In this document: one piece after another, positions 9,426 to 22,789 of the stretch | Layout: the number at the start of each line of letters is the position of its first letter | Numbering within the stretch: position 1 is the first letter of the stretch | Assembly (NCBI RefSeq): GCF_000215705.1 | Contig: NC_015677.1 | Coordinates: 1,872,001-1,936,000, forward strand | Length of the DNA stretch: 64,000 nt | Origin: Ramlibacter tataouinensis TTB310 | GTDB lineage: Bacteria > Pseudomonadota > Gammaproteobacteria > Burkholderiales > Burkholderiaceae_C | Direction: 5' to 3' | Position numbers and translations under genes: made by a program | Notes under the pieces: model-generated | Seen by the model: the letters and a program-made list of their open reading frames with translations, nothing else | The model's database searches: none | Told to the model about the DNA's origin: nothing

Positions 9426-9971
9426 CTAGGTGACGTCCAAGGTGTGGACGTCGAAGCAGCCGCGCCGGCGGTCGTCGAAGTAGAAGACCAGGGTCTCCCT
9501 CACGGTGCGGAAGGCGATCTCCTCCCAGGGCACCTCGTCCTCGGCGAACAGCCGGGCTTCTATGGTTTCCGCGCCGGGCTCGAACCGATCGCTGAGCAGC
9601 CGCGCCCGGTAGAACAGGTGCACCTGGCCGACGCGCGGCACGCTCAGAAGCGACAGCAGTCCTTCCATCTCGAACTGCGCACCGGCCTCTTCCACGGTTT
9701 CGCGGGCCGCGCCCTGCGCCGTGGTCTCGCCCAGTTCCATGAAGCCCGCCGGCAGGGTCCACTTGCCCCGGCGCGGCTCGATGTTGCGCTTGCACAGCAG
9801 CACCCGCTCGCCCCAGTAGGGCACGGTGCCGACCACGTTGAGCGGGTTTTCGTAGTGGATGGTGTCGCAGGCCGGGCAGACGGCGCGCTCGCGCGTGTCC
9901 CCGTCGTCCGGCACCCGGTAGACCACCGCCGTGCCGCAGTTGCGGCAATGTTTGATGGGGCTGCGCAGCAT
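9426..9971 (-). CDS. NUDIX hydrolase with zinc ribbon
   Basis: 181 aa. The N-terminal zinc ribbon has two CxxC pairs (CRNCG near residue 9 and CPAC near 32). The Nudix box GFMELGETTAQGAARETVEEAG at about residues 76-97 has the glutamates needed for metal binding. The family hydrolyses nucleoside diphosphates linked to another moiety, often ADP-ribose or NAD(H)-like substrates, but the substrate cannot be read from the sequence. It is convergent with the kinase gene (24-base gap). A strong minus-strand terminator just upstream separates it from the TRAP operon, so it is its own transcription unit. Confidence 0.92.
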   Translation of the reverse strand: MLRSPIKHCRNCGTAVVYRVPDDGDTRERAVCPACDTIHYENPLNVVGTVPYWGERVLLCKRNIEPRRGKWTLPAGFMELGETTAQGAARETVEEAGAQFEMEGLLSLLSVPRVGQVHLFYRARLLSDRFEPGAETIEARLFAEDEVPWEEIAFRTVRETLVFYFDDRRRGCFDVHTLDVT

Positions 9972-9983
9972 CCGGCCAGTGTA

Positions 9984-10012
9984 AGAAAGAAAAGGGCTCC
10001 CGCAGGAGCCCT
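9984..10012 (-). terminator. Terminator of the gentisate/TRAP operon
   Basis: On the minus strand AGGGCTCC-TGCG-GGAGCCCT is followed by TTTCTTTC. It lies 23 bases after the stop of the TRAP binding protein gene and before the Nudix gene. Confidence 0.9.
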
Positions 10013-10035
10013 GCCGGCAAGGCCGCCTGCGGCGC

Positions 10036-11088
10036 TCAGGCCTTGGTGGACTTCGTGTGCTTGTCGATCAGGCCGCGCGCCGTGTCCAGCAGCTTGCGGC
10101 CGTCGAAGCCGCGCTTGTTCATGTCCTCCACCCATTCCGCCTCGATGGTGCGCGAGCGGCGACGGAACTCCTGCGCCTCCGCAGCGCTGACGGTGAAGAT
10201 GTTGTTGCCGCGCTCGGAGGCCGACTTGCGGCCCACCGGGTCGTTGCCCTGCTGCGTCTTGCCCAGCCAGGCCGAGGTGGCCATGCCGGAGTTGGCGTCG
10301 ATGACCTTCTTCAGGTCGGGCGGCAGCGAGTCGTACTTGGCCTTGTTCATCGCCATCACGAAGGTGGTGGTGTAGAGCGAGCCGCCGGCCGGGTCGAACT
10401 CGGCGTGGTACTTGGTCAGCTCGTTCACCTTGACCGAGGGCACGACCTCCCAGGGGATCACGCAGCCGTTGATGGTGCCCTTGCTCAGCGCGTCGGGGAT
10501 CTGCGGCAGCGGCATGCCCACCGGCGTGGCGCCCAGGGCGGCCACCAGCTTGGTGACCTGGCGGGTGGGCGCGCGCACCTTGAGGCCGCGCATGTCGTTC
10601 ACCGACTTGACCGGCTTGTCGGCGGTGTGGATCACGCCGGGGCCGTGCACCTGCAGCGCGATCACCTGCGTGTCCTTGAACTCGTCGGCCGCCACGGTCT
10701 GCACGTACTCCCAGTAGGCCTTGGACGTGGCCTCGGCATTGGTCATCATGAACGGCAGCTCGAAGACCTCCACCCGCGGGAAGCGCCCGGCGGTGTTGCC
10801 CGGCAGCGTCCACACCACGTCCACCACGCCGTCCTTGGCCTGGTCGTACAGCTGCACCGGCGTGCCGCCCAGCTGCATGGCCGGGTAGGCCTCGAACTTG
10901 ATGCGGCCGCCGGAGTCCTTCTCGACCTTGTCCATCCACGGCTTGTGCATGCTCAGCCACACGTTGGACTGCGGCGCCATGAAGGTGTGGAACTTCAGCG
11001 TGACCGACTGCTGGGCGAAGCCGGTGAGGGCGCTGCCGCCCAGGGCAGCGGCGGCGCCCGATTTCAGAAGGGTTCGACGTGGGATCAT
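10036..11088 (-). CDS. TRAP transporter periplasmic substrate-binding protein (DctP family)
   Basis: 350 aa from the ATG at 11088, which has AAGGAG 6-7 bases upstream; an upstream ATG adding 13 residues is not supported. The N-terminus MIPRRTLLKSG followed by a hydrophobic Ala/Gly run and AQQ is a twin-arginine-like signal peptide. The DctP fold is shown by VTLKFHTF, DMRGLKVRAPTRQV and the RxP-type motif that binds carboxylates. It captures an organic or aromatic acid in the periplasm for the DctQM permease encoded upstream. Gene order (permeases first, binding protein last) and the terminator behind it make it the last gene of the run. An aromatic acid such as 3-hydroxybenzoate or gentisate is the likely cargo, by context. 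Confidence 0.93.
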   Translation of the reverse strand: MIPRRTLLKSGAAAALGGSALTGFAQQSVTLKFHTFMAPQSNVWLSMHKPWMDKVEKDSGGRIKFEAYPAMQLGGTPVQLYDQAKDGVVDVVWTLPGNTAGRFPRVEVFELPFMMTNAEATSKAYWEYVQTVAADEFKDTQVIALQVHGPGVIHTADKPVKSVNDMRGLKVRAPTRQVTKLVAALGATPVGMPLPQIPDALSKGTINGCVIPWEVVPSVKVNELTKYHAEFDPAGGSLYTTTFVMAMNKAKYDSLPPDLKKVIDANSGMATSAWLGKTQQGNDPVGRKSASERGNNIFTVSAAEAQEFRRRSRTIEAEWVEDMNKRGFDGRKLLDTARGLIDKHTKSTKA

Positions 11089-11170
11089 GGGGTTCTCCTT
11101 GGGGCCGAAGTTAAACGCAAAGCGCACGGGACGGTTCCGGGGCTTTCCCGTAAGCCGCCCGCGCCGGGGA

Positions 11171-12490
11171 CTAGCGGATGAAGCCGACCAGCCAGAGCGG
11201 GATGATCGGGAAGAACAGGAACAGCAGGGTGCGCAGCACGTCGCTGACCAGGAACGGCAGGACGCCGCGGTAGGTCTCGCCCATGGGCACGTCCTTGGCC
11301 AGGCCGTTGACGATGTAGACGTTCAGGCCCACCGGCGGCGCGATCAGCCCGAAGCCCACGGTCATCAGCACCATGATGCCGAACCAGATGGCGACCGATT
11401 CCCGGGGCATGCCGAAGTCCAGGCCGATGATGATGGGGAAGAAGATGGGGATGGTGAGCAGCAGCATGGACAGCTCGTCCATCACGGCGCCCAGCAGCAC
11501 GTAGAACAGCAGGATGGCTACCACCACGACCAGGGGCGACAGGCCCCAGCCGCCCACCACCGCGGCCAGCTGGTTCGGCACCTGGGTCAGGGCCAGGGCG
11601 GCGTTCATCAGGTCGGCGCCCAGGAAGATCAGGAAGATCATGGCGGCGCTGACGGCCGTGCCGTAGAAGCAGTCCCTGAACTTGGCCAGGCTCATCTCGC
11701 CCTTGCCCAGGGCCGTGAGGAAGGTCGACGCGGCGCCTACGGCCGCGCCCTCGGTGGGCGTGAAGAAGCCGCCGTAGATGCCGCCGAACACCAGGGCGAA
11801 GATCACCGCGATGGGCAGCACGCCCAGCAGCGAGCGCAGCGTCAGCGGCGGCGGCGCGTCCTCGACCTCGGGCGCGTGGCCGGGCACGGCCCGCACGTAG
11901 ATGGCCACGGCGACCATGTAGCCGACCATGGCGATGAGGCCGGGCAGGATGGCGGCGGCGAACAGCTTGCTGATGTTCTGCTCGGTCAAGATCGCGTAGA
12001 TCACCAGCACGATGGACGGCGGCAGCTGGATGCCCAGGGTGCCGCCGGCGGCCAGCGTGCCGGTGGCGATGCGGCCCGAGTAGCCGTGGCGGCGCATCTC
12101 CGGCAGCGCCACGCCGGTGATGGTGGCAGCCGTGGCCACCGACGAGCCGCTGATCGCGCCGAAGGCCGCACAGGCCAGCAGCGAGGCCATCGCCAGGCCG
12201 CCCTTGAAGCGGCCCATGACGGCGGCGGCGAACTCGAACAGCGACTTGCTGATCCCGCCCTTGGTGGCGAAATGCCCCATCAGGATGAACAGCGGGATGA
12301 CCGAGAGGTCGTAGCTGGCGAAGCGAGCGAAGGCCTGCGTGTTCAGGAAGTTGGCGAAGGGCAGCCAGCCGGTCTGCACCAGGTAGCCGATGGTGCCGGC
12401 GCTGAACATGCTGACGGCGATCGGCACCCGGATGGCCATCAGGGCCAGCATGCTGCCGAAGATCAGGGCGGTGAGGCCGAGCGAGCTCAT
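11171..12490 (-). CDS. TRAP transporter large permease (DctM family)
   Basis: 439-aa polytopic inner-membrane protein with about 12 predicted helices, the usual DctM length. Typical segments are ALIFGSMLALMAIRVPIAVS, the conserved GPxxA-like region TAATITGVALPEMRRHGY and QLPPSIVLVIYAIL. It forms the sodium-driven transport channel together with DctQ. It lies 58 bases after the small permease gene and 82 bases before the binding protein gene, all on the minus strand. Confidence 0.94.
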   Translation of the reverse strand: MSSLGLTALIFGSMLALMAIRVPIAVSMFSAGTIGYLVQTGWLPFANFLNTQAFARFASYDLSVIPLFILMGHFATKGGISKSLFEFAAAVMGRFKGGLAMASLLACAAFGAISGSSVATAATITGVALPEMRRHGYSGRIATGTLAAGGTLGIQLPPSIVLVIYAILTEQNISKLFAAAILPGLIAMVGYMVAVAIYVRAVPGHAPEVEDAPPPLTLRSLLGVLPIAVIFALVFGGIYGGFFTPTEGAAVGAASTFLTALGKGEMSLAKFRDCFYGTAVSAAMIFLIFLGADLMNAALALTQVPNQLAAVVGGWGLSPLVVVVAILLFYVLLGAVMDELSMLLLTIPIFFPIIIGLDFGMPRESVAIWFGIMVLMTVGFGLIAPPVGLNVYIVNGLAKDVPMGETYRGVLPFLVSDVLRTLLFLFFPIIPLWLVGFIR

Positions 12491-12548
12491 TCGATAACCT
12501 CCGCCCTGCGGGCTGCGGTGCCATGAGACTTCGGAGCGGCCGGGCGTC

Positions 12549-13037
12549 TCATATGGCCGCCTCGCCGGCCTCTTCGGTGCGGAAGCCGAACACCGCCTGG
12601 TGCAGGGCGATCAGCCCGGCCAGCACGAAGGCCGGCGTCATGACGGCGTAGACCACCCATTCCGGGAAGCCCATGATCTGCGTCTCGGAGCCGGTGTTGT
12701 AGCTGTTCAGGCCGCCCAGCGCGGTGCGCCAGGTCAGCAGGCCGAAGATCAGGGCCAGCAGCAGGGCGCCCAGCCGGTCCAGCCTGTCGTTGACGGCGGG
12801 CCGCAGGCCCGCGGTGAAGAAGTCGACGATGATGTTGCCGCGCCGGGCCTGGCACAGCGGCATGAACAGCGCGATGGCCGCGCCGGCTGCCACCGCGGTC
12901 AGCTCGAACGCGCCGACGATGGAGTCACCGGTCGTGTTGCGGCCGATCAGGCTACCGCAGGTCAAGAGCGTGATGGCGGTCAGCAGCACGCCGGCCAGGA
13001 TGGCGCACAGCTTGGCCAGCTTTTCCAGTACGAACAA
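12549..13037 (-). CDS. TRAP transporter small permease (DctQ family)
   Basis: About 162 aa with four membrane helices, typical for DctQ (LCAILAGVLLTAITLLTCGS, GAAIALFMPL near AxxRRGNIIVDFF, and two more). The ARRGNIIVDFF segment is the family hallmark. The start is a TTG at 13037, which has AAGGAGA seven bases upstream; no ATG or GTG fits. A longer open frame upstream overlaps other features and is not supported. It forms the membrane pair with DctM. Two IclR-like operator boxes lie just upstream (13112-13146), so transcription may restart here. Confidence 0.88.
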   Translation of the reverse strand: MFVLEKLAKLCAILAGVLLTAITLLTCGSLIGRNTTGDSIVGAFELTAVAAGAAIALFMPLCQARRGNIIVDFFTAGLRPAVNDRLDRLGALLLALIFGLLTWRTALGGLNSYNTGSETQIMGFPEWVVYAVMTPAFVLAGLIALHQAVFGFRTEEAGEAAI

Positions 13038-13111
13038 AGCCAGGTCTCCTTCGTTCTTCTGCGCGATTGTCGAGCCCCGGGTCGGTTCAGGGGTGGCTGC
13101 GCGCGGTCCCT

Positions 13112-13146
13112 GTTCGATGATCGAACGCGCTGCTCGATCATCGCGC
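13112..13146 (-). promoter_or_regulatory. Tandem IclR-type (PcaR/PobR-like) operator boxes
   Basis: GTTCGATGATCGAAC at 13112-13126 is a perfect 15-nt palindrome that differs only slightly from the published PcaR/PcaU-type box GTTCGATAATCGCAC. A second, weaker copy GCTCGATCATCGCGC sits at 13132-13146, centre to centre 20 bp, about two helical turns. The pair falls in the 125-base gap between the hydrolase and dctQ genes. No IclR gene is present in the window. Confidence 0.6.
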
Positions 13147-13162
13147 ATGCGCCGGGCCGGCT

Positions 13163-13864
13163 TCAGGCCGGCTGCACCTTCACCGTCAGCGGCTCCAGTC
13201 CCGCCACGCCGCCGGCCAGGGTGTCGCCGGCCACCACCGCGGCCACCCCTTCGGGCGTCCCGGTAAAGATCAGGTCGCCCGGCTGCAGCTCCCAGGCCGC
13301 CGACAGGTGCTCGATGGTCTCGGCGATGTTCCAGATCAGCTTGGAGATGCTGCTGCGTTGCCGGTCCTGGCCGTTGACCTGCAGGAAGATCTCGGCCTGC
13401 TGGATGTTGCCGGCCTGTGCCGCCGGGGTGATCGGCCCCATGGGCGCGGACTGGTCGAAGCCCTTGCCGATGTCCCAGGGGCGCCCCTGCTTCTTCATCT
13501 CGCCCTGCAGGTCGCGCCGGGTCATGTCCAGGCCGACGGCGTAGCCGAAGATGTGCTTGAGCGCGTCGGCCGCCTTGATGTTGCGCCCGCCGGTGCCGAT
13601 CGCCGCCACCAGCTCGATCTCGTGGTGCAGGTTCTTGGTCAGGGTCGGGTAGCGGATCGCACCGGTCTTGCCGGCTTCCACCGGCACCACGGCGTCGGCC
13701 GGCTTGAGGAAGAAGAAGGGCGGCTCGCGGCCGGTGAAGCCCATCTCCTTGGCATGCTCCTCGTAGTTGCGGCCCACGCAGTAGACGCGGCGGACCGGGA
13801 AGCGCTCGGCGCGGCCCACCACGGGCACGGACACCACGGGCGGCGCGGAGACGACGTAGTTCAT
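13163..13864 (-). CDS. Fumarylacetoacetate hydrolase family protein (probable fumarylpyruvate hydrolase)
   Basis: 233 aa, the length of bacterial FAH-family acylpyruvases. It shows YCVGRNYEEHAKEMG, the metal-binding glutamates in HHEIELVAAIG, and GDLIFTGTPEGV near the end. In the gentisate pathway this enzyme splits fumarylpyruvate (or maleylpyruvate directly) into fumarate (maleate) and pyruvate. The ATG at 13864 overlaps the gentisate dioxygenase stop (ATGA), which signals translational coupling. The assignment to gentisate rather than another aromatic pathway rests on this neighbour. Confidence 0.9.
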   Translation of the reverse strand: MNYVVSAPPVVSVPVVGRAERFPVRRVYCVGRNYEEHAKEMGFTGREPPFFFLKPADAVVPVEAGKTGAIRYPTLTKNLHHEIELVAAIGTGGRNIKAADALKHIFGYAVGLDMTRRDLQGEMKKQGRPWDIGKGFDQSAPMGPITPAAQAGNIQQAEIFLQVNGQDRQRSSISKLIWNIAETIEHLSAAWELQPGDLIFTGTPEGVAAVVAGDTLAGGVAGLEPLTVKVQPA

Positions 13865-14922
13865 GACAGCCTTTCTTCTTGGTGAATGCCCAGGGCCTGG
13901 TGCACCGGGCGGTCGGAGAAACTGAACAGCACGCAACCCGCGGCCGATTCAAGCCGGGCAGTGTGCCATGAGGGGATGACGAAATGGTCGCGCGCCGCGA
14001 CCTCGAACCGCCAGGTCTCGCCCCTGGGGGATTCGGCGTGCACCACGGCTTCGCCCTCGACCACGCTGTAGACCGCACCATCGGTCTGGCGCCAGCCCTT
14101 GCCCGCGAAGCCCGCCGGCAGCTTCTGCATGAAGGTGGCCATGGTGGGCATGGGCGAGCCGCCGGTCAGCGGGTTCAGGTAGCGCAGCTTGACGCCGTCC
14201 CAGGGGTCGATGGGCGCGAGGCGCTCCAGCTGCTGGAGCGCCTCGCGGCTGCGCTCGTAGGGATAGCTGAACAGGGGCGAGGTCTTGCCGCCGAAGGGCG
14301 GGTCGTGCCGCACCGGCGCCATGTTGTGGCCATAGCGGGCGAAGCTGGTGCCCTCGGTGCGCGTCACCTCCTGCGCGCGCGCCGTGCCGTTCTGCGCGAA
14401 GCCGGCGTCGAAGAAGCGGATCATGGGGATGTCCAGCCCGTCCAGCCAGACCACCGGGCCGTCCGCCTCGCTGCCGTGGTCGTGGAAGGTCCAGCTCGGC
14501 GTGATGATGAAGTCGCCCGGACGCATGGCGGTGCGCTCGCCATCCACCGCGGTGTAGGCGCCGCTGCCCTCGACGATGAAGCGCAGCGCGCTCTGCGTGT
14601 GGCGGTGGCTGGGCGCCACCTCGCCCGGCAGGATCAGCTGCAGCCCGGCATACAGCGACTGGGTGACGGCCGACTGGCCGCGCAGCTTCGGGTTCTCCAG
14701 GATCAGCACGCGCCGCACCGCTTCCTCGGCCGTGATGGCCTGGCCTGCGCGCATCAGGAACGGCCGCACCTGGCCGTACTTCCACAGCGCGGGCACGCAG
14801 GGGGAGGCGGGCTGCGGCGGAACCAGCGCATGCAGCACCTCCCACAGCGGGGTCAGGTTCAGCGGGTCCATGTCGCGGTACAGCTGCTGGCGCGCCAGCA
14901 GGGCGTTGTTGGGTGCGTTCAT
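13861..14922 (-). CDS. Gentisate 1,2-dioxygenase
   Basis: 353 aa, a two-cupin ring-cleavage dioxygenase converting gentisate (2,5-dihydroxybenzoate) and O2 to maleylpyruvate with Fe(II). The N-terminal cupin has metal-ligand histidines at PSHRHTQSALRF (H106, H108) and a later His in WTFHDHG. The second cupin has SVVEGEAVVHAE and HFVIPSWHTARL. The start MNAPNNALL at 14922 has AAGGAGA upstream. It ends overlapping the FAH hydrolase start. The neighbouring 3-hydroxybenzoate 6-hydroxylase gene supports the gentisate assignment. Related 1-hydroxy-2-naphthoate dioxygenases are the main alternative. Confidence 0.92.
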   Translation of the reverse strand: MNAPNNALLARQQLYRDMDPLNLTPLWEVLHALVPPQPASPCVPALWKYGQVRPFLMRAGQAITAEEAVRRVLILENPKLRGQSAVTQSLYAGLQLILPGEVAPSHRHTQSALRFIVEGSGAYTAVDGERTAMRPGDFIITPSWTFHDHGSEADGPVVWLDGLDIPMIRFFDAGFAQNGTARAQEVTRTEGTSFARYGHNMAPVRHDPPFGGKTSPLFSYPYERSREALQQLERLAPIDPWDGVKLRYLNPLTGGSPMPTMATFMQKLPAGFAGKGWRQTDGAVYSVVEGEAVVHAESPRGETWRFEVAARDHFVIPSWHTARLESAAGCVLFSFSDRPVHQALGIHQEERLS

Positions 14923-14947
14923 GCGGTTTCTCTCCTTCAGGCGCGGC

Positions 14948-16297
14948 TCACCAGGTTTGTCCCAGGTAGGCGCTGGCGGCTTCCAGCCGCTGCTGCAATT
15001 GGGCCACGTCCACGCTGCCCGCGGGGACGCCGGCGGAAAGGGCCAAATCCGCGGCGGTGCCTGCCGCCTGGCCCATGACAAAGCAGGCGCCGGTGACCCG
15101 GGCCGCCGACTGCGCCTCGTGGCTCATCGAGGCGCAGCGGCCGGCCACCCACAGGTTGTCGAAGCCGACCGGCACGGTCATGCGGTAGGGCAGGTGGTTG
15201 AAGCCGCGGCTTTCCGGGATCCGCGGCCAGCGGAACTCCACGTCGCCCTTCAGGTGCAGCTCCAGCGGCCAGCCGTTGACGCCGACGGTGTCGTCGAAGC
15301 TGGCGCAATCCAGCACGTCGGCTTCGGTCAGCTGGTACAGCCCGCGCACGCGCCGCGTCTCACGGATGCCCACCTGCGGCGCGATGTCCACGATGTAGCT
15401 GGCCTCGAAGCCGGGCACCTCGCGCAGGAAACCCGCGACCTCGGCGATCTGGCGCCGCCCCAGGATCTCGGCCTCGCTCAGCTCGGCGGCATCGACGCCG
15501 TTCATCGCGTTGCCGTCGCGGTTGGCCAGCTGGGTCAGGTTGACGCGCCACTCGATGCCGCTCTTTTGCGGCCGCACGATGGGCGTCTTGCGCGGGAAGC
15601 GGTAGCGGCCCTCGGCCTGCGCCTGCAGCATCAGCTTGGGGATCGCCTCCCAGGCACGGCCGGCACGCGCCGGGTCGATGCCGTTGAGCCGGAACATGGT
15701 GGAGGGGTAGAGCATGTTGCCCTGCCCGTCGCCCAGCTCCCAGGGAGCGCCGGCCCAGGCCGCCAGGTCGCCGTCGCCCGAGGCGTCGACGAAGCAGCGG
15801 CCGCGCACGGCGCGCCGGCCGGAGCGGGTCTCGACCAGCAGCGCGGACAGCTGGCGCGGGCCCTCCATCACCACGCCCACGGCCAGCGCGTGGAACAGCA
15901 GCTGCACCCCCGCCGACAGCAGCAGGTCGTCGGCCGCGATCTTGTAGGCGGCGGTGTCGTACGCCTGGGCCACCGTCTTGCCGAACAGGGCATGGGGCGC
16001 GTTCAGCCCGCCCAGCCGGTCGATGCGCGCCAGCAGGTCATCGGCCACGCCGTGCACCACCTGGCGGATGTCGCCGTGCACGTTGGCATGCAGGCCGCAG
16101 AAGTTGGTCACGCCGGCGGCCGTGCCCATGCCGCCCAGGAAGCCGTAGCGCTCGATCAGCAGCGTGCTGCGGCCGGCGTGCGCGGCGGCCACCGCGGCCG
16201 CCATGCCGGCCGGGCCGCCGCCCAGGACGACCACGTCCCACTCGCCCAGCACGGGCGTCTGGCGGCTGGGTTCGGTCAGGGCGGCGGGCTGGGTCAT
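14948..16297 (-). CDS. FAD-dependent oxidoreductase (FAD_oxidored type), substrate unknown
   Basis: 449 aa. Rossmann FAD motif near the N-terminus (VVVLGGGPAGMAAAVAA, residues about 22-38), then ERYGFLGGMGTAAGVTNFCG, a family signature. A second FAD contact is FVDASGDGDLAAWAGAP, and a C-terminal one is LWVAGRCASMSHEAQSAARV with FVMGQAAGTAA. This family includes putative dehydrogenases of poorly known substrate. It is placed between the hydroxylase gene (7 bases after that gene's stop region) and gentisate dioxygenase (25 bases), so it belongs to the operon, though no step of the standard gentisate pathway needs it. It may process an upstream substrate or side product. Confidence 0.85.
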   Translation of the reverse strand: MTQPAALTEPSRQTPVLGEWDVVVLGGGPAGMAAAVAAAHAGRSTLLIERYGFLGGMGTAAGVTNFCGLHANVHGDIRQVVHGVADDLLARIDRLGGLNAPHALFGKTVAQAYDTAAYKIAADDLLLSAGVQLLFHALAVGVVMEGPRQLSALLVETRSGRRAVRGRCFVDASGDGDLAAWAGAPWELGDGQGNMLYPSTMFRLNGIDPARAGRAWEAIPKLMLQAQAEGRYRFPRKTPIVRPQKSGIEWRVNLTQLANRDGNAMNGVDAAELSEAEILGRRQIAEVAGFLREVPGFEASYIVDIAPQVGIRETRRVRGLYQLTEADVLDCASFDDTVGVNGWPLELHLKGDVEFRWPRIPESRGFNHLPYRMTVPVGFDNLWVAGRCASMSHEAQSAARVTGACFVMGQAAGTAADLALSAGVPAGSVDVAQLQQRLEAASAYLGQTW

Positions 16298-16304
16298 GGC
16301 TGGC

Positions 16305-17501
16305 TCATGGCTGGAACAGGCGCTCGGGGTCTATGCCTTTGTACATCCACTGCAGGCCGGCGAAACCCGCCGATTCCTGGCCGGACTGGAACAGCCGGTT
16401 GCGCAGCTCGCGCTGCACGCCCGAGGCATGGTAGATGTCGCCGTAGAAGCGGGCGGTCAGCTGCACCCGGCCGGTGCGCAGGTAGCGCTCGTCCTGGTAC
16501 AGCTGGAAGGCCCGCGCCGGGTCGTTGCTGGCGGCCTTGAGCGCCCGGCCCAGCACCACCGCGTCCTCGATCGCCTGGCCGGCGCCCTGCGCCAGGTACT
16601 GCAGCATCGGATGGGCGGCATCGCCCAGCAGGGTGACGCGGCCTTGCGACCAGTTCCTCACCGGCTCGCGGTCGCACAGCACCCACATCTTCCAGGTCTC
16701 GATCCTGGCCAGCAGTTCGCGCACCTGCGGCACCGCCTGGGCGAAGCGCTCGTTCAGCTCGGCGCTGTCGCCGAAGGTGTTCCAGCCCTCGTCGTACTTG
16801 TTGCTGTGGAAGACGGCGACCAGGTTGAACAGCTCGCCGCGGCGCAGCGGGTAGTGCACCAGGTGCGTCTTCTCGCCGCCCCACAGCAGCACGTCGTCGC
16901 TCCACAGGTGCGCAGGCACCTCTTCGCGCCGCAGCACGGCGCGGTAGGCGATGTGGCCCGAGACGCGCGGCTTGCCGTCGCCGACCACCGCCTCGCGGAT
17001 GCGGCTCCACAGCCCGTCGGCGCCCACCAGAGCGTCGCCGGCCAGGGCCTCGCCCGAGGCCAGCCGCACGCGCACGCCGGCATCGTCCTGCCCGAACGAA
17101 TCGACCTTGGCGGCGGTGCGCAGCGTGACGCCCGGCAGCGTGCGGCAGGCCTCGAGCAGCACCGCGTGCAGGTCGGCGCGGTAGATCACACCGTAGGGGA
17201 AGCCATAGGCGGCGCGCGCCGCCTCGCCCAGCGGCACGCGCACCACGCGCTCGCCGGTGCGCACGTCGTTCATGCCCAGCCCCGCGGGGTAGAAGGCCAC
17301 GCGGTCGACGGCGGCCGCAAGGCCCAGGTACTCGAACATCCTGAAGATGTTGGGGCCGAGCTGGATGCCGGCGCCGATCTCGCCGAAGGCCTGCGACTGC
17401 TCCAGCACCGTGACGCGATGGCCGGCGCGCGCCAGCACGCAGGCGGCGGCCAGGCCGCCGATGCCGCCGCCGGCCACGAGGAAGTGCAGTGCTGGTGCCA
17501 T
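16305..17501 (-). CDS. 3-hydroxybenzoate 6-hydroxylase (salicylate-hydroxylase-like FAD monooxygenase)
   Basis: 398 aa from ATG 17501; an ATG six codons earlier at 17519 is also possible and neither has a clear SD. Group A flavoprotein monooxygenase: FAD motif VAGGGIGGLAAACVLARAG, DG motif DALVGADGLWSRIR, and GD motif GRVTLLGDAAHPMLQYLAQG. It is closest in layout to 3-hydroxybenzoate 6-hydroxylases, which make gentisate with NADH and O2. The gentisate dioxygenase gene downstream supports that over salicylate 1-hydroxylase. It is first gene of the minus-strand catabolic run and is transcribed away from the MarR gene. Confidence 0.87.
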   Translation of the reverse strand: MAPALHFLVAGGGIGGLAAACVLARAGHRVTVLEQSQAFGEIGAGIQLGPNIFRMFEYLGLAAAVDRVAFYPAGLGMNDVRTGERVVRVPLGEAARAAYGFPYGVIYRADLHAVLLEACRTLPGVTLRTAAKVDSFGQDDAGVRVRLASGEALAGDALVGADGLWSRIREAVVGDGKPRVSGHIAYRAVLRREEVPAHLWSDDVLLWGGEKTHLVHYPLRRGELFNLVAVFHSNKYDEGWNTFGDSAELNERFAQAVPQVRELLARIETWKMWVLCDREPVRNWSQGRVTLLGDAAHPMLQYLAQGAGQAIEDAVVLGRALKAASNDPARAFQLYQDERYLRTGRVQLTARFYGDIYHASGVQRELRNRLFQSGQESAGFAGLQWMYKGIDPERLFQP

Positions 17502-17504
17502 GGA

Positions 17505-17528
17505 TTGATAAGCATACATATAAATTCC
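17505..17528. promoter_or_regulatory. AT-rich divergent promoter/operator, marR and hydroxylase
   Basis: The 68-base gap between the two starts has an AT island (GATAAGCATACATATAAATT) that contrasts with the surrounding GC. It probably holds the promoter of the catabolic operon and the binding site of the MarR protein. I cannot define a clean palindrome. Confidence 0.45.
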
Positions 17529-17569
17529 GGCGCCGCAAGGGGCCGCACCCGACCGTACACTCCGCTCCC

Positions 17570-18007
17570 ATGGCCAAGAGCTTCGATTTCCAGCATGCGC
17601 CGGGTCACCTGATCCGTCGCGCGCACCAGGTCGCGGTGGCGATCTTCATGGAGGAGACCGCGGCCTTCGACGTGACGCCGGTGCAGTTCGCCATCCTCAA
17701 CGCGCTCATCGACGAGCCCGGCGAGGACCAGGTGACGCTGGCCTCGCGCGTCGCCTTCGATGCGGCCACCTTCGGCTCGGTGATCGGCCGGCTGGAGGCC
17801 AAGGGCTGGGTGCGGCGCGAGCCCGATGCCCAGGACAGGCGCCGCAAGCTGTTGTGGATCACGCCGGCGGGCCGCGAGGCCGCACTGCGCATGAAGCGCG
17901 CGGTGGCGCGGGTGCAGGCGCGCATCGTGGCGCCGCTGGACGATGCCGAGCGCGAGCAGATGGTGTTGCTGCTGGGTAAACTGGTGGCCGGGCACGCCCA
18001 AGGCTGA
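17570..18007 (+). CDS. MarR-family transcriptional regulator
   Basis: 145 aa, typical MarR size. The winged helix lies at about residues 35-105 (TPVQFAILNALIDEPGEDQVTLASRVAFDAATFGSVIGRLE, then the wing PDAQDRRRKLLWITPAG). The dimer helices are at the two ends. It is divergent from the 3-hydroxybenzoate/gentisate genes with a short AT-rich gap, the usual layout of a repressor released by the aromatic substrate. Start MAKSFDFQH at 17570; an upstream extension in frame crosses the promoter and is unlikely. Confidence 0.93.
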   Translation: MAKSFDFQHAPGHLIRRAHQVAVAIFMEETAAFDVTPVQFAILNALIDEPGEDQVTLASRVAFDAATFGSVIGRLEAKGWVRREPDAQDRRRKLLWITPAGREAALRMKRAVARVQARIVAPLDDAEREQMVLLLGKLVAGHAQG

Positions 18008-18810: not shown

Positions 18811-19146
18811 TCAGTGCTGCCGCTGCGGCAGGTCGACGACCAGCCCGTCCAGGGCGTCGGTCAGCTCGATCTGGCAGCTCAGGCGGCTGTTGGCCTGCCG
18901 CGGCGAGGCGGTGAACTCCAGCATGCCCAGCTCGTCCTCGCCGGGCGCGGAGAGGCGGGCGGCATGCGGCTCGCGCAGGTAGACGTGGCAGGTGGCGCAG
19001 GTCATCAGCCCGCCGCAGTCGGCCTCGATGCCGGCGATGTTGGCCGCCATCGCGGCCTGCATCAGGCTCTGCCCCGTCTTGCAGCGGACCTCGGTGGCGG
19101 CAGGCTCCGGCCCTTCGCTGGATGCAATGAATCGGACGGTGATCAT
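18811..19146 (-). CDS. [2Fe-2S] ferredoxin, putidaredoxin/adrenodoxin type
   Basis: 111 aa. Cluster ligands C44, C50, C53 (DCGGLMTCATC) and C91 (RLSCQIEL) give the C-x5-C-x2-C...C pattern of the adrenodoxin class. It transfers single electrons in the cytoplasm. The ATG overlaps the stop of the glutamine-synthetase-like gene by one base, so it is the third gene of the Rieske operon and probably the electron donor of that oxygenase. No ferredoxin reductase gene is nearby. It is distinct from the isc ferredoxin at 63594. Confidence 0.93.
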   Translation of the reverse strand: MITVRFIASSEGPEPAATEVRCKTGQSLMQAAMAANIAGIEADCGGLMTCATCHVYLREPHAARLSAPGEDELGMLEFTASPRQANSRLSCQIELTDALDGLVVDLPQRQH

Positions 19147-20627
19147 CAGAATCGGCTGAAGTATTCGCGGCGCTGGAAGTCGTCCTTGTCCTCGGCGGCT
19201 TCCCAGCGCTGCAGCTCGCATTGCTTGATGCGGCTGAAGTAGTCGATGAAGGGGGCGCCAAACGCGGCCACCAGGCCCTCGTCCTGCCGCAGCGCGGCCA
19301 GCGCCTCGCCCAGGCCGGTGGGCAGCATCACGCCGCCGGTGGCATAGGGCGCCTCGGTGGCCGGGGGCGCCTCGCGCCGCCGCTCGATGCCGTCCAGCCC
19401 GGCGTGGATCTGCGAGGCCAGGTACAGGTAGGGGTTGGCCGCCGGCTCGCCGATACGGTTCTCGATGCGCGTGCCGGCATCGCCGCAGGCGCCCACCACG
19501 CGCAGCATGGCGCCGCGGTTGTCGCGGCCCCAGAGCACGGCCTGCGGTGCGAGCGCGTTCGGGCGGAAGCGGCCGAAGCCGTTGACCGTGGGCGTGCAGA
19601 ACACCGCCATGCCGCGGGCGTGTTCCAGCAGCCCGGCCAGGTAATGCTCGCCCAGCGCCGAGAGCGTGTGCCGGGCCTGGGCCGGCGTCGCCCCCGGCTC
19701 CGGCTGTTCGCGTCGGAACAGGTTGGCGCCGCCGTCCAGCGCCACCAGCGACTGGTGCAGGTGCCAGCCGCTGGACATGATGTTGGGGAAGGGCGGCCGG
19801 CACATGAAGCTGGCGTGGTAGCCGGCACGGCGCAGCGCCTGGCGAACGCCGTTGCGGAACAGCACCATGTTGTCCGCCGCGGTCATGGCGTCGGTGGCCT
19901 GGAACACCGCCTCGACCTGGCTGGGCCCCAGCTCGATCTCCAGCGACAGCAGGGGCAGGCCGAGCGCCTGCGCCGTGTGCTGCACGATGCGCAGCGGCTC
20001 CTCCGCCATGTCGTACCAGTTCTCGGCCAGCAGGTTGTAGCCCGGGTGGACCAGTTCCACCCGGGGCGGCAGCCCCGGCCAGGCGGCCTGCGCCGGGTCC
20101 AGCTGGTCGCCGGCATCGGTGATGCGGTAGATGTGGAACTCGACTTCCAGGCCGCAGCGCAGGCCCCAGCCGCGGCCCGCCAGGCGCTCCAGGGCGCGCT
20201 CCAGCACGCGGCGGGTGTCCAGCTCCACCGGCGTCGCGTCCTCGAACCAGGGCTGCGCCCGCACCCAGCCGGTGGCCGGGGTCCAGGGCAGGGTGCGCAG
20301 GCTCGCCGGGTCGGCCAGCAGCAGCAGGTTGTTGGCGAAGCCGAAGCCCGGCAGGCTGGCGGTGCCGCCCGGCTCGAACACCTTGAACGCGGTGCGGTCC
20401 GAGGTGTCCTTGAGCATCAGCGTGCTGACCATGCCCAGGCCGTCGCGCATCGCCTGCGCCGCGGCCGAGGCCACCAGGGTCTTGCCGCGCGTGACGCCAT
20501 GCAGGTCGCACCAGGCGAAGCGCACCAGCTCCAGGCCGCCGGCGGCGATCGCTTGCTCCGCCCGCTGCAGCGCGTCCTCGCGCGCCGCGTCGTGGATGCC
20601 GCAGCGCTGGGCGAAGCTGGCCGTCAT
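19146..20627 (-). CDS. Glutamine-synthetase-like ligase (gamma-glutamyl amide synthetase family)
   Basis: 493 aa. Glutamine-synthetase fold with active-site residues intact: metal glutamates in GLEVEFHIYR and LEIELGPSQVE, the ATP/metal His in SSGWHLHQSL, and NGFGRFRPNALAPQAVLWGRDNR with TRIENRIGEPAANPYLYLA. True GlnA landmarks such as the adenylylation loop are absent, so it is a ligase joining glutamate to an amine. Relatives include gamma-glutamylputrescine, gamma-glutamylanilide (AtdA1/TdnQ) and gamma-glutamylisopropylamide synthetases. Its start overlaps the Rieske oxygenase stop (ATGA) and its stop overlaps the ferredoxin start, so all three are translated together. The substrate is unknown; an amine that is then oxygenated is the contextual guess. 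Confidence 0.85.
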   Translation of the reverse strand: MTASFAQRCGIHDAAREDALQRAEQAIAAGGLELVRFAWCDLHGVTRGKTLVASAAAQAMRDGLGMVSTLMLKDTSDRTAFKVFEPGGTASLPGFGFANNLLLLADPASLRTLPWTPATGWVRAQPWFEDATPVELDTRRVLERALERLAGRGWGLRCGLEVEFHIYRITDAGDQLDPAQAAWPGLPPRVELVHPGYNLLAENWYDMAEEPLRIVQHTAQALGLPLLSLEIELGPSQVEAVFQATDAMTAADNMVLFRNGVRQALRRAGYHASFMCRPPFPNIMSSGWHLHQSLVALDGGANLFRREQPEPGATPAQARHTLSALGEHYLAGLLEHARGMAVFCTPTVNGFGRFRPNALAPQAVLWGRDNRGAMLRVVGACGDAGTRIENRIGEPAANPYLYLASQIHAGLDGIERRREAPPATEAPYATGGVMLPTGLGEALAALRQDEGLVAAFGAPFIDYFSRIKQCELQRWEAAEDKDDFQRREYFSRF

Positions 20628-22009
20628 GCCGGCTCGGCGGTCGTGGCGGCCTTGGGCGTCCACGGCGCGCCTTCGCGCTTGGCCTGGACCCGCTCGCGCC
20701 ACCAAGTAGGCCAGGTGCCGGCCGGGGCGATGCCGTCCACCGTGTCGGGCCCGTGCATCTGGCCGGCCAGCGTGGCATCGCCCACTCCCGGCGGCGTGCC
20801 GCCGTTTTTCACCGACTCGATGGCGGCCAGCAGCATGCGCCGGTTGGCCATGATCACCTTGTCCGAGGTGCCCAGGTGCTCGCGCGTGCGGTCCTGGATG
20901 GGGCCCATGCTCTCCACCGCCCACTGGTCGTGCACGTTGATGTCGTCCTCGCCCATGCCCAGGTAAGTGCTGCTGCGCTGCTCGTCGGCGTTGAAGCCCC
21001 AGCGGTTGTGGCGGCCGGAATTGGGGATGTAGTCGGGCAGGCTGATGTACTGCGTGCGCTGGTTGCGCATCGCGGCCTTGTCCACCGGCCCGGCGAAGCT
21101 GGTGAAGACCGAATACCAGTAGGTACGGGTGTCGTCCACCGGCACGTGCATCTGGGTGATGGTCAGCGTCTCCGACAGCGGGATCACGAAGGTGTGCGGG
21201 AAGATGGCGTTGGTGATGCGAACGTGCGTGAGCTCGTCGGTCATGGGCCGCAGCGCCGTGAGCTGCAGGCCCCAGGGCTTGGGTTCGAAGCTGATCTCGG
21301 GGCGGTGGAACTCGCGCATGATGCGCGTCATCGGCCAGCGCTCGCCGGCGGCCTCGCCGGCGCTGGCGCTGCGGAACTGCTTGCCTGCCGCGTTGTCGCC
21401 GACCTGCTCCAGCGCCGCGTCGTTCAGGAAGCGGTGCAGGAAGGACGGGTGCGCCGGGTCGATGCCCACCTCGAAGGCCTGCAGCCAGTTGCAGTGCCAC
21501 AGGCCCTTGAAGGCGAAGGTGTGGCTGGCCGGCGCGGCGAAGCAGTCGAAGGCGGGGAAGGGCGGGGGCGTGCTCCCTTCCTCGCCCAGCCAGGCGAACA
21601 GGATGCCGCTTCGCTCCAGCACCGGGTAGCTGCGCTGGCGGACGCGCTCGCACAGCCGGCTGCCCAGGGGCTCGGCCGGCGTCTCCAGGCAGCGGCCGGT
21701 GGCATCGAACTTCCAGCCGTGGAAGGGGCAGCGCAGGCCGTCGCCCTCGTGCCGGCCGAACGAGAGGTCGGCGTTGCGGTGCGGACAGTCGCGGTCAAGC
21801 AGGCCCCAGCGGCCCTGGTCGTCCCTGAACAGCACCAGGTCCTGGCCCAGCAGGCGCACCGCCTTGACCGGGCGCTGCGCCATGCGCGGATCCAGCGCCG
21901 GGTCGAACTCGTCGACCAGGGCGGCTGGCTGCCAGTAGCGGCGCATCAGCGCGCCGCAGGCGGTGCCGGGGCCAGTGCGCGTGACCAGTTCGTTCTGTTC
22001 GGCCTTCAT
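20624..22009 (-). CDS. Rieske non-heme iron oxygenase, phthalate 4,5-dioxygenase-like alpha subunit
   Basis: 461 aa. Rieske [2Fe-2S] ligands C75, H77 (CPHRNADL) and C94, H97 (CPFHGW). The mononuclear iron site is in NWLQAFEVGIDPAHPSFLH (D-x2-H-x4-H spacing). The N-terminus (TRTGPGTACGALMRRYWQPAAL) is characteristic of the phthalate-dioxygenase-type oxygenases that work without a beta subunit. The ATG at 22009 has AAAGGA. It is first in an operon with a GS-like ligase and a ferredoxin. Known phthalate-type enzymes use a fused reductase, which is missing here. The substrate is not predictable from sequence; an amine or aromatic amide is suggested by the neighbours. Confidence 0.9.
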   Translation of the reverse strand: MKAEQNELVTRTGPGTACGALMRRYWQPAALVDEFDPALDPRMAQRPVKAVRLLGQDLVLFRDDQGRWGLLDRDCPHRNADLSFGRHEGDGLRCPFHGWKFDATGRCLETPAEPLGSRLCERVRQRSYPVLERSGILFAWLGEEGSTPPPFPAFDCFAAPASHTFAFKGLWHCNWLQAFEVGIDPAHPSFLHRFLNDAALEQVGDNAAGKQFRSASAGEAAGERWPMTRIMREFHRPEISFEPKPWGLQLTALRPMTDELTHVRITNAIFPHTFVIPLSETLTITQMHVPVDDTRTYWYSVFTSFAGPVDKAAMRNQRTQYISLPDYIPNSGRHNRWGFNADEQRSSTYLGMGEDDINVHDQWAVESMGPIQDRTREHLGTSDKVIMANRRMLLAAIESVKNGGTPPGVGDATLAGQMHGPDTVDGIAPAGTWPTWWRERVQAKREGAPWTPKAATTAEPA

Positions 22010-22026: not shown

Positions 22027-22036
22027 CGGTATACCG
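22027..22036. promoter_or_regulatory. Probable GntR operator in the divergent Rieske/gntR gap
   Basis: CGGTATACCG is a perfect 10-bp palindrome in the 57-base gap, its core GGTATACC matching the half-site style of FCD-type GntR regulators. A second small palindrome, TGTACA at 22051-22056, sits closer to the gntR start. Confidence 0.55.
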
Positions 22037-22066
22037 AAATTGAGGTTCAGTGTACAGTCCGTTGGC

Positions 22067-22789
22067 ATGAGCCTGCAAGAAACCGTGCTGATGCAGCTGC
22101 GCGACCGCATCCTCAGCGGCGAGTTCGAGCCCGGCCAGCGCCTGGCCGAACAGCAGCTGGCCGAGCAGCTGGGCGCCTCGCGCACCCCGGTGCGCGCAGC
22201 GCTGGGCACCCTGGAGCAGGAGGGCCTGGTGGAAGCCAACGAGGCCGGCAAGTACCTGGTGCGCCGCTTCACGCCGCGCGAGGTGGCCGACGCCATCGCG
22301 GTGCGCGGCCACCTGGAGGGCATGGCGGCGCGGCTGGTGGCCGAGCACGGGCTGCCCCGCCAGCTGCAGCTGGACCTGCAGGCCTGCCTGGAGGAGGGCG
22401 ACGCCGTGCTGGCCGCCAAGAAGCCCGACTACGACAGCTACGCCGGCTACGCGGCGATGAACGACCGCTTCCACGGCCTGATCCTGCAGGCCTGCGGCAA
22501 CCGGGCGCTGCAGCGCGCCGTCGCCCTGAACAACTCCCTGCCGTTCGCACCGCCCTCGGCCATGCTGCCCATGCAGTCGGCCCTGCCGCAGGACTGGGAC
22601 TGGATGCGCTATGCGCACCGGCAGCACCACATGCTGTTCGACGCGCTCCAGCGCGGCGAGGGCGCGCGGGCGCAGGCCCTGGCGATGGAGCACACCGAGG
22701 TGGCGCAGATGAACATGCGGCTGGCGCTGGAGCGCCGCGCCGAGACCGAGCGGGTCCTGCCCGCCATGCGCCTGGTGGTGGGGCGGTGA
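22067..22789 (+). CDS. GntR-family regulator (FCD subfamily)
   Basis: 240 aa. N-terminal winged helix (LMQLRDRILSGEFEPGQRL, EQLGASRTPVRAALGTLEQEGLV, residues about 8-70). The all-helical FCD effector domain follows (MNDRFHGLILQACGNRAL and the metal-binding histidines in RQHHMLFDAL). It is divergent from the Rieske operon and most likely controls it. The azlC start overlaps its end by 4 bases, so the transporter pair may share its transcript. Confidence 0.93.
   Translation: MSLQETVLMQLRDRILSGEFEPGQRLAEQQLAEQLGASRTPVRAALGTLEQEGLVEANEAGKYLVRRFTPREVADAIAVRGHLEGMAARLVAEHGLPRQLQLDLQACLEEGDAVLAAKKPDYDSYAGYAAMNDRFHGLILQACGNRALQRAVALNNSLPFAPPSAMLPMQSALPQDWDWMRYAHRQHHMLFDALQRGEGARAQALAMEHTEVAQMNMRLALERRAETERVLPAMRLVVGR

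Follow-up and report, generated by a model that had tools for sequence, protein, structure and literature searches.

A three-gene operon of Ramlibacter tataouinensis TTB310 that is very probably orthologous to the sadABD genes of Hydrogenophaga intermedia

In the aniline dioxygenases AtdA and TdnQ and in the 1-naphthylamine system NpaA, a ligase resembling glutamine synthetase (GS) is reported to form a gamma-glutamyl anilide that a Rieske dioxygenase then oxidizes (PMC11335346, PMC4539516). Transposon mutagenesis of Hydrogenophaga intermedia PBC led to the sad operon, which consists of Rieske, GS-like and ferredoxin genes and is held responsible for the conversion of 4-aminobenzenesulfonate (sulfanilate) to 4-sulfocatechol (PMC5632844). 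The same article describes SadABD as a 4-aminobenzenesulfonate 3,4-dioxygenase, citing Gan et al. 2012, Microbiology 158:1933, and reports that the sad genes were conserved in every Hydrogenophaga genome then known, that the 4-sulfocatechol genes were confined to H. intermedia, and that a natural substrate was suspected but left open. Here we describe an operon with the same three kinds of gene in 64,000 nucleotides of the chromosome of Ramlibacter tataouinensis TTB310 (NC_015677.1, positions 1,872,001 to 1,936,000; hereafter the window). We propose, with a probability of roughly 0.8, that this operon is the orthologue of sadABD and that its products would glutamylate an acid-bearing aniline and then dioxygenate it to a catechol.

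The genes are contiguous in the order Rieske, GS-like, ferredoxin (Table 1). A first-pass annotation of the window, made from its letters alone, had described them as translationally coupled, and the reading frames, their positions and both overlaps are as it described: the GS-like start overlaps the Rieske stop as ATGA, and the GS-like and ferredoxin genes meet in a one-base TGATG overlap. Pfam assigns Rieske and LigXa_C domains to the oxygenase, Gln-synt_C to the ligase and Fer2 to the ferredoxin. The proposal of a phthalate-type oxygenase with intact metal sites holds, in that Rieske Cys-His pairs and a D-x2-H-x4-H iron site (motifs that we take to be the usual patterns for such enzymes) are legible in the translation and phthalate-dioxygenase-type oxygenases are among the nearest solved structures. 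A phthalate-like substrate was also considered on the basis of conserved arginines, but the matching arginine is common to all three aligned enzymes and is not diagnostic. Putidaredoxin is among the best solved relatives of the ferredoxin, in agreement with its assignment to the adrenodoxin type. No beta subunit, amidotransferase or reductase lies within the three-gene operon, again as the annotation had it, and the next gene past the ferredoxin, OmpA-like by eye, is on the opposite strand.

The ligase belongs to none of the well-modelled GS types against which it was scored, falling below the model cut-offs for GlnA (TIGR00653, 179 bits vs 429), type III GS (TIGR03105, 202 bits vs 470) and the gamma-glutamylputrescine synthetase PuuA (NF045547, 175 bits vs 650). 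Its nearest solved ligase structure is 8wwu, which we take to be NpaA1 because the code 8WWU occurs twice in PMC11335346. The ligase had been credited with intact catalytic residues, and this is correct only in part. Among the positions examined in an alignment with the host GlnA and NpaA1, the ExE, H-x-H and RIENR positions, which bind ATP, metal and glutamate, are retained, but the flap glutamate of the host GlnA (GFEAP) is replaced by Leu359 (NALAP), the same residue as in NpaA1. The FDGS stretch of the host GlnA, in the Asp50' region, aligns poorly and has no clear counterpart. Organic-amine ligases are reported to have lost both the flap glutamate and Asp50' (PMC11335346). The change to Leu359 is in keeping with a ligase for organic amines and not for ammonia.

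Trees built from 52 GS and 41 Rieske sequences (with the host's own GlnA, its second GS and the GS-like sequence of locus L196 flagged as long branches) place the window in a 21-member GS clade and a 20-member Rieske clade, each with 100/100 support. The same 11 Burkholderiales sequences form a second group in both trees (GS 100/99, Rieske 95/94). The trees disagree on a Nitratireductor sequence, which joins the Palleronia kin for GS and Novosphingobium resinovorum for Rieske. The window ligase stands away from the host GlnA, and four aniline ligases form a clade of their own (100/100), apart from that of the window.

Co-inheritance of the genes was examined in the best 80 of 574 ligase relatives (the named loci, 81 with the window). 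A Rieske gene lies immediately upstream of the ligase in 71 of the 71 loci with enough upstream DNA, a ferredoxin gene lies downstream in 58 of 77 testable loci, and a related GntR gene is present in 32 of 68, divergent every time. Further loci were fetched for Hydrogenophaga (30 asked for), Ramlibacter (10) and the family (30), and the counts refer to the loci returned rather than to every match: Rieske genes are found in 29/29, 9/9 and 28/29 of these, respectively, and ferredoxin genes in 27/29, 9/9 and 23/29. Nine blocks (L046, L049, L057, L058, L101, L103 and L105-L107) have no ferredoxin detectable in the fetched flanks, and the ferredoxin therefore seems to be a replaceable part of the block. 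Thus, the ligase departs from GlnA and PuuA both in its scores and, for GlnA, in the tree, and it travels with a Rieske gene, the opposite of the pattern that the first-pass annotation had given as counting against its proposal.

The link to sadABD was drawn through a Hydrogenophaga genome, G157, which we infer to be H. intermedia from its 4-sulfomuconolactone hydrolase. This protein passes the hydrolase model NF042924 (603 bits vs a cut-off of 500). A search with it gives matches at E 1e-20 in 60 of 67 Hydrogenophaga genomes, none of them above 40% identity outside G157. Its gene adjoins a homologue of 3-carboxymuconate cycloisomerase (just under cut-off) and a gene resembling maleylacetate reductase. 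The maleylacetate reductase of N. resinovorum was also tried as a marker and abandoned, being matched in 30 of 67 Hydrogenophaga genomes with none above 50% identity; that search pointed to G157 solely via its best-scoring extra copy, and the hydrolase search is the specific test. G157 carries a single GS of the window type, at locus L208. The L208 block has the gene order of the window and a divergent GntR gene, with identities to the window of 80% for GntR, 69% for Rieske, 68% for GS and 54% for ferredoxin, as well as 80% for a fumarylacetoacetate-hydrolase-family (FAH) enzyme and 74% for the transporter receptor DctP. Because G157 holds both the hydrolase marker and a single block with matching genes, the window block is very probably a sadABD orthologue. 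Window-type GS genes are present in 53 of 67 Hydrogenophaga genomes and in 41 of the 44 that are near-complete. Apart from fragmented genes (G190, G209, G211), additional GS copies in this genus comprise four at 42-43% identity and one at 49%.

This probable orthology changes the standing of the operon. The combination of genes had been put forward as a distinct route or a new amine deprotection scheme, and this claim of novelty must be withdrawn, since the sad operon of H. intermedia PBC is built from the same three kinds of gene and the system is of a known kind. The underlying idea that an amine is glutamylated and then oxidized fares better and is the most likely account of the operon. In the proposed mechanism, the SadB-type ligase would couple glutamate, at the expense of ATP, to the amino group of an aniline bearing an acid group, probably in the para position, giving a gamma-glutamyl amide. 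The SadA-type oxygenase, fed with electrons by the SadD-type ferredoxin and a reductase encoded elsewhere, would then dioxygenate the ring at the amide-bearing carbon and its neighbour. The unstable product would collapse to a catechol and glutamine, or to a catechol with glutamate and ammonia, so that 4-aminobenzenesulfonate would yield 4-sulfocatechol and its carboxyl analogue 4-aminobenzoate would yield protocatechuate. The divergent GntR protein would control the operon via boxes in the shared promoter. The amide chemistry is proposed by analogy with AtdA1 and NpaA1, and we infer the order of the steps and the regulation by GntR. In the work of Gan and colleagues, removal of the GS-like gene reportedly abolished activity in E. 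coli.

Several observations weigh against equating the window operon with sadABD in this way. The identity of G157 is itself deduced, and pcaHG was not seen on its 6,150-bp hydrolase contig. Three of the 44 near-complete Hydrogenophaga genomes have no window-type GS gene, and the ferredoxin is missing in 19 of the 77 testable named loci. In the host genome, no 4-sulfomuconolactone hydrolase scores above the model cut-off, which sets it apart from H. intermedia, and no ferredoxin reductase of the Reductase_C type was found that might serve as electron donor. The arrangement also differs, in that gentisate genes of the window stand between the block and the FAH and TRAP transporter genes that trail it directly in L208.

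The presence of gentisate genes leads to a different reading, namely that the block feeds the adjoining gentisate cluster by acting on a meta-amino compound, for example 3-aminobenzoate or an aminosalicylate. Just downstream of the block (9426-18007) lie genes for a 3-hydroxybenzoate 6-hydroxylase (NF006021, 545 bits vs 459), an FAD oxidoreductase, a gentisate 1,2-dioxygenase (TIGR02272, 510 bits vs 442), FAH and a TRAP transporter (DctQ/M/P), with a divergent MarR gene. Of the 81 loci, 17 have a member of the hydroxylase family, 19 a gentisate dioxygenase, 28 an FAH enzyme and 35 a DctP. However, the named Hydrogenophaga and Limnohabitans loci have neither the hydroxylase nor the gentisate dioxygenase in their 10-kb flanks, and deaminating 1,2-dioxygenation gives catechols rather than gentisate. 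A 5-aminosalicylate or 3-aminobenzoate pathway had been considered from the neighbouring bicupin enzyme, but this ring-cleavage enzyme fits gentisate dioxygenase rather than the 5-aminosalicylate dioxygenase MabB (222 bits vs 650). We regard a meta-amino substrate as unlikely.

Even if the ligase and the oxygenase are correctly assigned to their families, they could perform unrelated jobs, with the former glutamylating an aliphatic amine and the latter acting as a LigXa-like O- or N-demethylase. LigXa_C is indeed the top Pfam domain of the oxygenase, and some GS-like proteins accept aliphatic amines, for example the gamma-glutamylethanolamide synthetase described in PMC6529630. Tight co-inheritance of the two genes across deep clades and many backgrounds, together with the joint role reported in Hydrogenophaga (PMC5632844), makes such a division of labour quite improbable. 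Less credible still, and in our view very improbable, is that the operon encodes an AtdA/TdnQ-like aniline dioxygenase whose substrate is aniline, either unsubstituted or chlorinated. AtdA1-A5/TdnQ and NpaA1-A5 share with the window the pairing of a GS-like ligase with a Rieske dioxygenase, and the window ligase is about 36-42% identical to plasmid aniline-type ligases. Unlike the window operon, those systems have an alpha/beta oxygenase, an amidotransferase and a reductase, their ligases fall in a separate clade, and the Rieske partners of the aniline ligases match the window weakly.

Accepting the sadABD reading, the question becomes which acid-bearing aniline the operon has evolved to consume. 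We tentatively favour the conversion of 4-aminobenzoate to protocatechuate, at somewhat less than even odds, because some related blocks adjoin genes for 4-hydroxylaminobenzoate lyase or for protocatechuate catabolism. In a search of 115 loci, the 4-hydroxylaminobenzoate lyase PnbB (PF16155) was found near the block in L178, L180, L181 and L182, all of them second-clade plasmid blocks. A PcaK-like transporter was found near L035, L178, L181 and L182 (55-100% identical to the L035 query, and below the PcaK cut-off), and a C26 amidotransferase near L035, L178 and L181. These three were not found near the 80 named window-clade loci, bar one PcaK match at 22%. In Palleronia, no more than about 5 kb separates pcaGHCD from the GS-like gene, and the true Rieske gene is about 6 kb away on the other side; a 489-residue neighbour of the Palleronia GS, considered as its oxygenase partner, is not a Rieske protein. 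We also count in favour of 4-aminobenzoate a host class III extradiol dioxygenase beta subunit (LigB-type; NF009903, 537 bits vs 317), which is probably of the protocatechuate 4,5 kind, although it scores 526 bits against the protocatechuate 4,5-dioxygenase fusion model, below the cut-off of 837. About 0.4 kb from this LigB-type dioxygenase gene is that of a host amidohydrolase, which scores 232 bits, less than the cut-off, against the sulfomuconolactone hydrolase model, and this region (G000:C1:2629281-2631338) looks like a protocatechuate 4,5-cleavage cluster.

The case for 4-aminobenzoate is tempered by several facts. The blocks with PnbB or pca neighbours are from other clades, whose GS proteins are about 43-48% identical to that of the window and whose substrate could differ, and most of the 115 loci have neither a PnbB nor a pca-type neighbour. 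Proteins of PF16155 are also reported in benzoate (box) clusters (PMC6449761), and the neighbours of the window block itself are the 3-hydroxybenzoate and gentisate genes. Furthermore, H. intermedia is reported to need added 4-aminobenzoate for growth on 4-aminobenzenesulfonate (PMC5632844), which would be odd if the system drained 4-aminobenzoate efficiently. A 4-aminobenzoate dioxygenase with a GS-like partner was not recognized in the literature searched, a scope that left out most subscription journals.

The second-clade plasmid modules of Cupriavidus, Caballeronia, Polaromonas, Methylobacterium and N. resinovorum have homologous Rieske and ligase genes. Records from Cupriavidus, Caballeronia and Polaromonas have a related GntR gene next to the block (downstream of it in Cupriavidus), and in the 115-locus search the Methylobacterium and N. 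resinovorum loci yielded none. Unlike the window block, many of these modules include a ferredoxin reductase, and some have an amidotransferase, a PcaK-like transporter or PnbB nearby. N. resinovorum SA1 is described as a 4-aminobenzenesulfonate degrader (PMC5632844), and its related block is near a maleylacetate reductase gene. Its plasmid pSA3 also has folP (L034:1349-2179), encoding dihydropteroate synthase, some 8 kb away from the Rieske-GS block, and this may relate to the likeness of sulfanilate and 4-aminobenzoate.

Among the plasmid matches listed (40 of 72 Rieske records and 40 of 284 GS records), the best 13 Rieske relatives (44-59% identical) all come from records that also hold a GS-like gene within about 7 kb, adjacent in 10 of the 13, and the fourteenth is only 36.5% identical. 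The GS records outside those 13 (27 of the 40) carry aniline-type or other ligases. No plasmid record listed reaches 60% identity to the window ligase, and the window clade therefore looks chromosomal. The ligase gene is present in 46 of 60 Ramlibacter genomes; in one genome of the genus (G265:C1:2944869-2946275) the GS-like match is in two pieces and the gene may be damaged. At the level of the class, 6 of 369 genomes match the ligase at E 1e-105, with a window-clade copy only in the host and one Hydrogenophaga genome, and the best 80 of 574 relatives include genes from Ideonella, Rubrivivax and a Methylobacillus metagenome-assembled genome. Judging from these matches, the module hardly extends beyond the family and its close kin. 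At L196:9053 in genome G009, a related GS-like gene (50% identical) has no Rieske neighbour and shares its stretch with gentisate genes.

Between the Rieske gene and the start of the oppositely oriented GntR/FCD gene lie 57 bp, and this shared promoter contains two conserved boxes. In 35 window-clade loci with a divergent GntR gene, the window and L208 included, the palindrome is conserved as GG[T/G]ATACC in 31, and this sequence and TGTACAC occur at a constant 21-nt offset in 30. The corresponding values for base-shuffled segments, which ignore shared descent, are 0.07 for GG[T/G]ATACC, 0.15 for TGTACAC and 0.0 for both at that offset. We consider the palindrome a candidate GntR operator. Related GntR copies also occur in part of the second clade, in which, by raw count, 8 of 8 promoters carry TGCATACAA or TGCATGCAA.

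Table 1. Features of the operon, its promoter and associated genes (window coordinates)
Feature	Position	Strand	Length	Remarks
Rieske oxygenase alpha subunit, phthalate/LigXa type (probable SadA orthologue)	20624..22009	-	461 aa	
GS-like gamma-glutamyl organic-amine ligase (probable SadB orthologue)	19146..20627	-	493 aa	ATGA overlap with Rieske gene
Putidaredoxin/adrenodoxin-type [2Fe-2S] ferredoxin (probable SadD orthologue)	18811..19146	-	111 aa	one-base overlap with GS-like gene
Divergent GntR/FCD regulator	22067..22789	+	240 aa	conserved alongside block
Palindrome CGGTATACCG	22027..22036	.		within 57-bp divergent promoter
Second promoter box TGTACAC	22050..22056	-		in 32/35 window-clade loci
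FAH-family enzyme	13163..13867	-		behind gentisate cluster; operon membership uncertain
TRAP transporter receptor DctP	10036..11067	-		trails block and FAH in L208 (74% identical); membership uncertain

Past the block, FAH comes next in L208 and in 8 of the 9 named Hydrogenophaga loci. In L208 it follows the ferredoxin by about 20 nt (L208:9421-10116) and may belong to the sad operon.

The sad module reaches far beyond Hydrogenophaga, and its conserved promoter boxes offer a direct handle on the regulator. PMC5632844 did not settle the natural substrate, for which genes next to some related blocks suggest 4-aminobenzoate. As a broader and still more tentative proposition, the Comamonadaceae and their close kin may possess a widespread, mostly chromosomal pathway for the catabolism of this folate precursor by gamma-glutamylation and 3,4-dioxygenation to protocatechuate. 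If so, Hydrogenophaga would have turned that pathway to sulfanilate only recently, as a side use.

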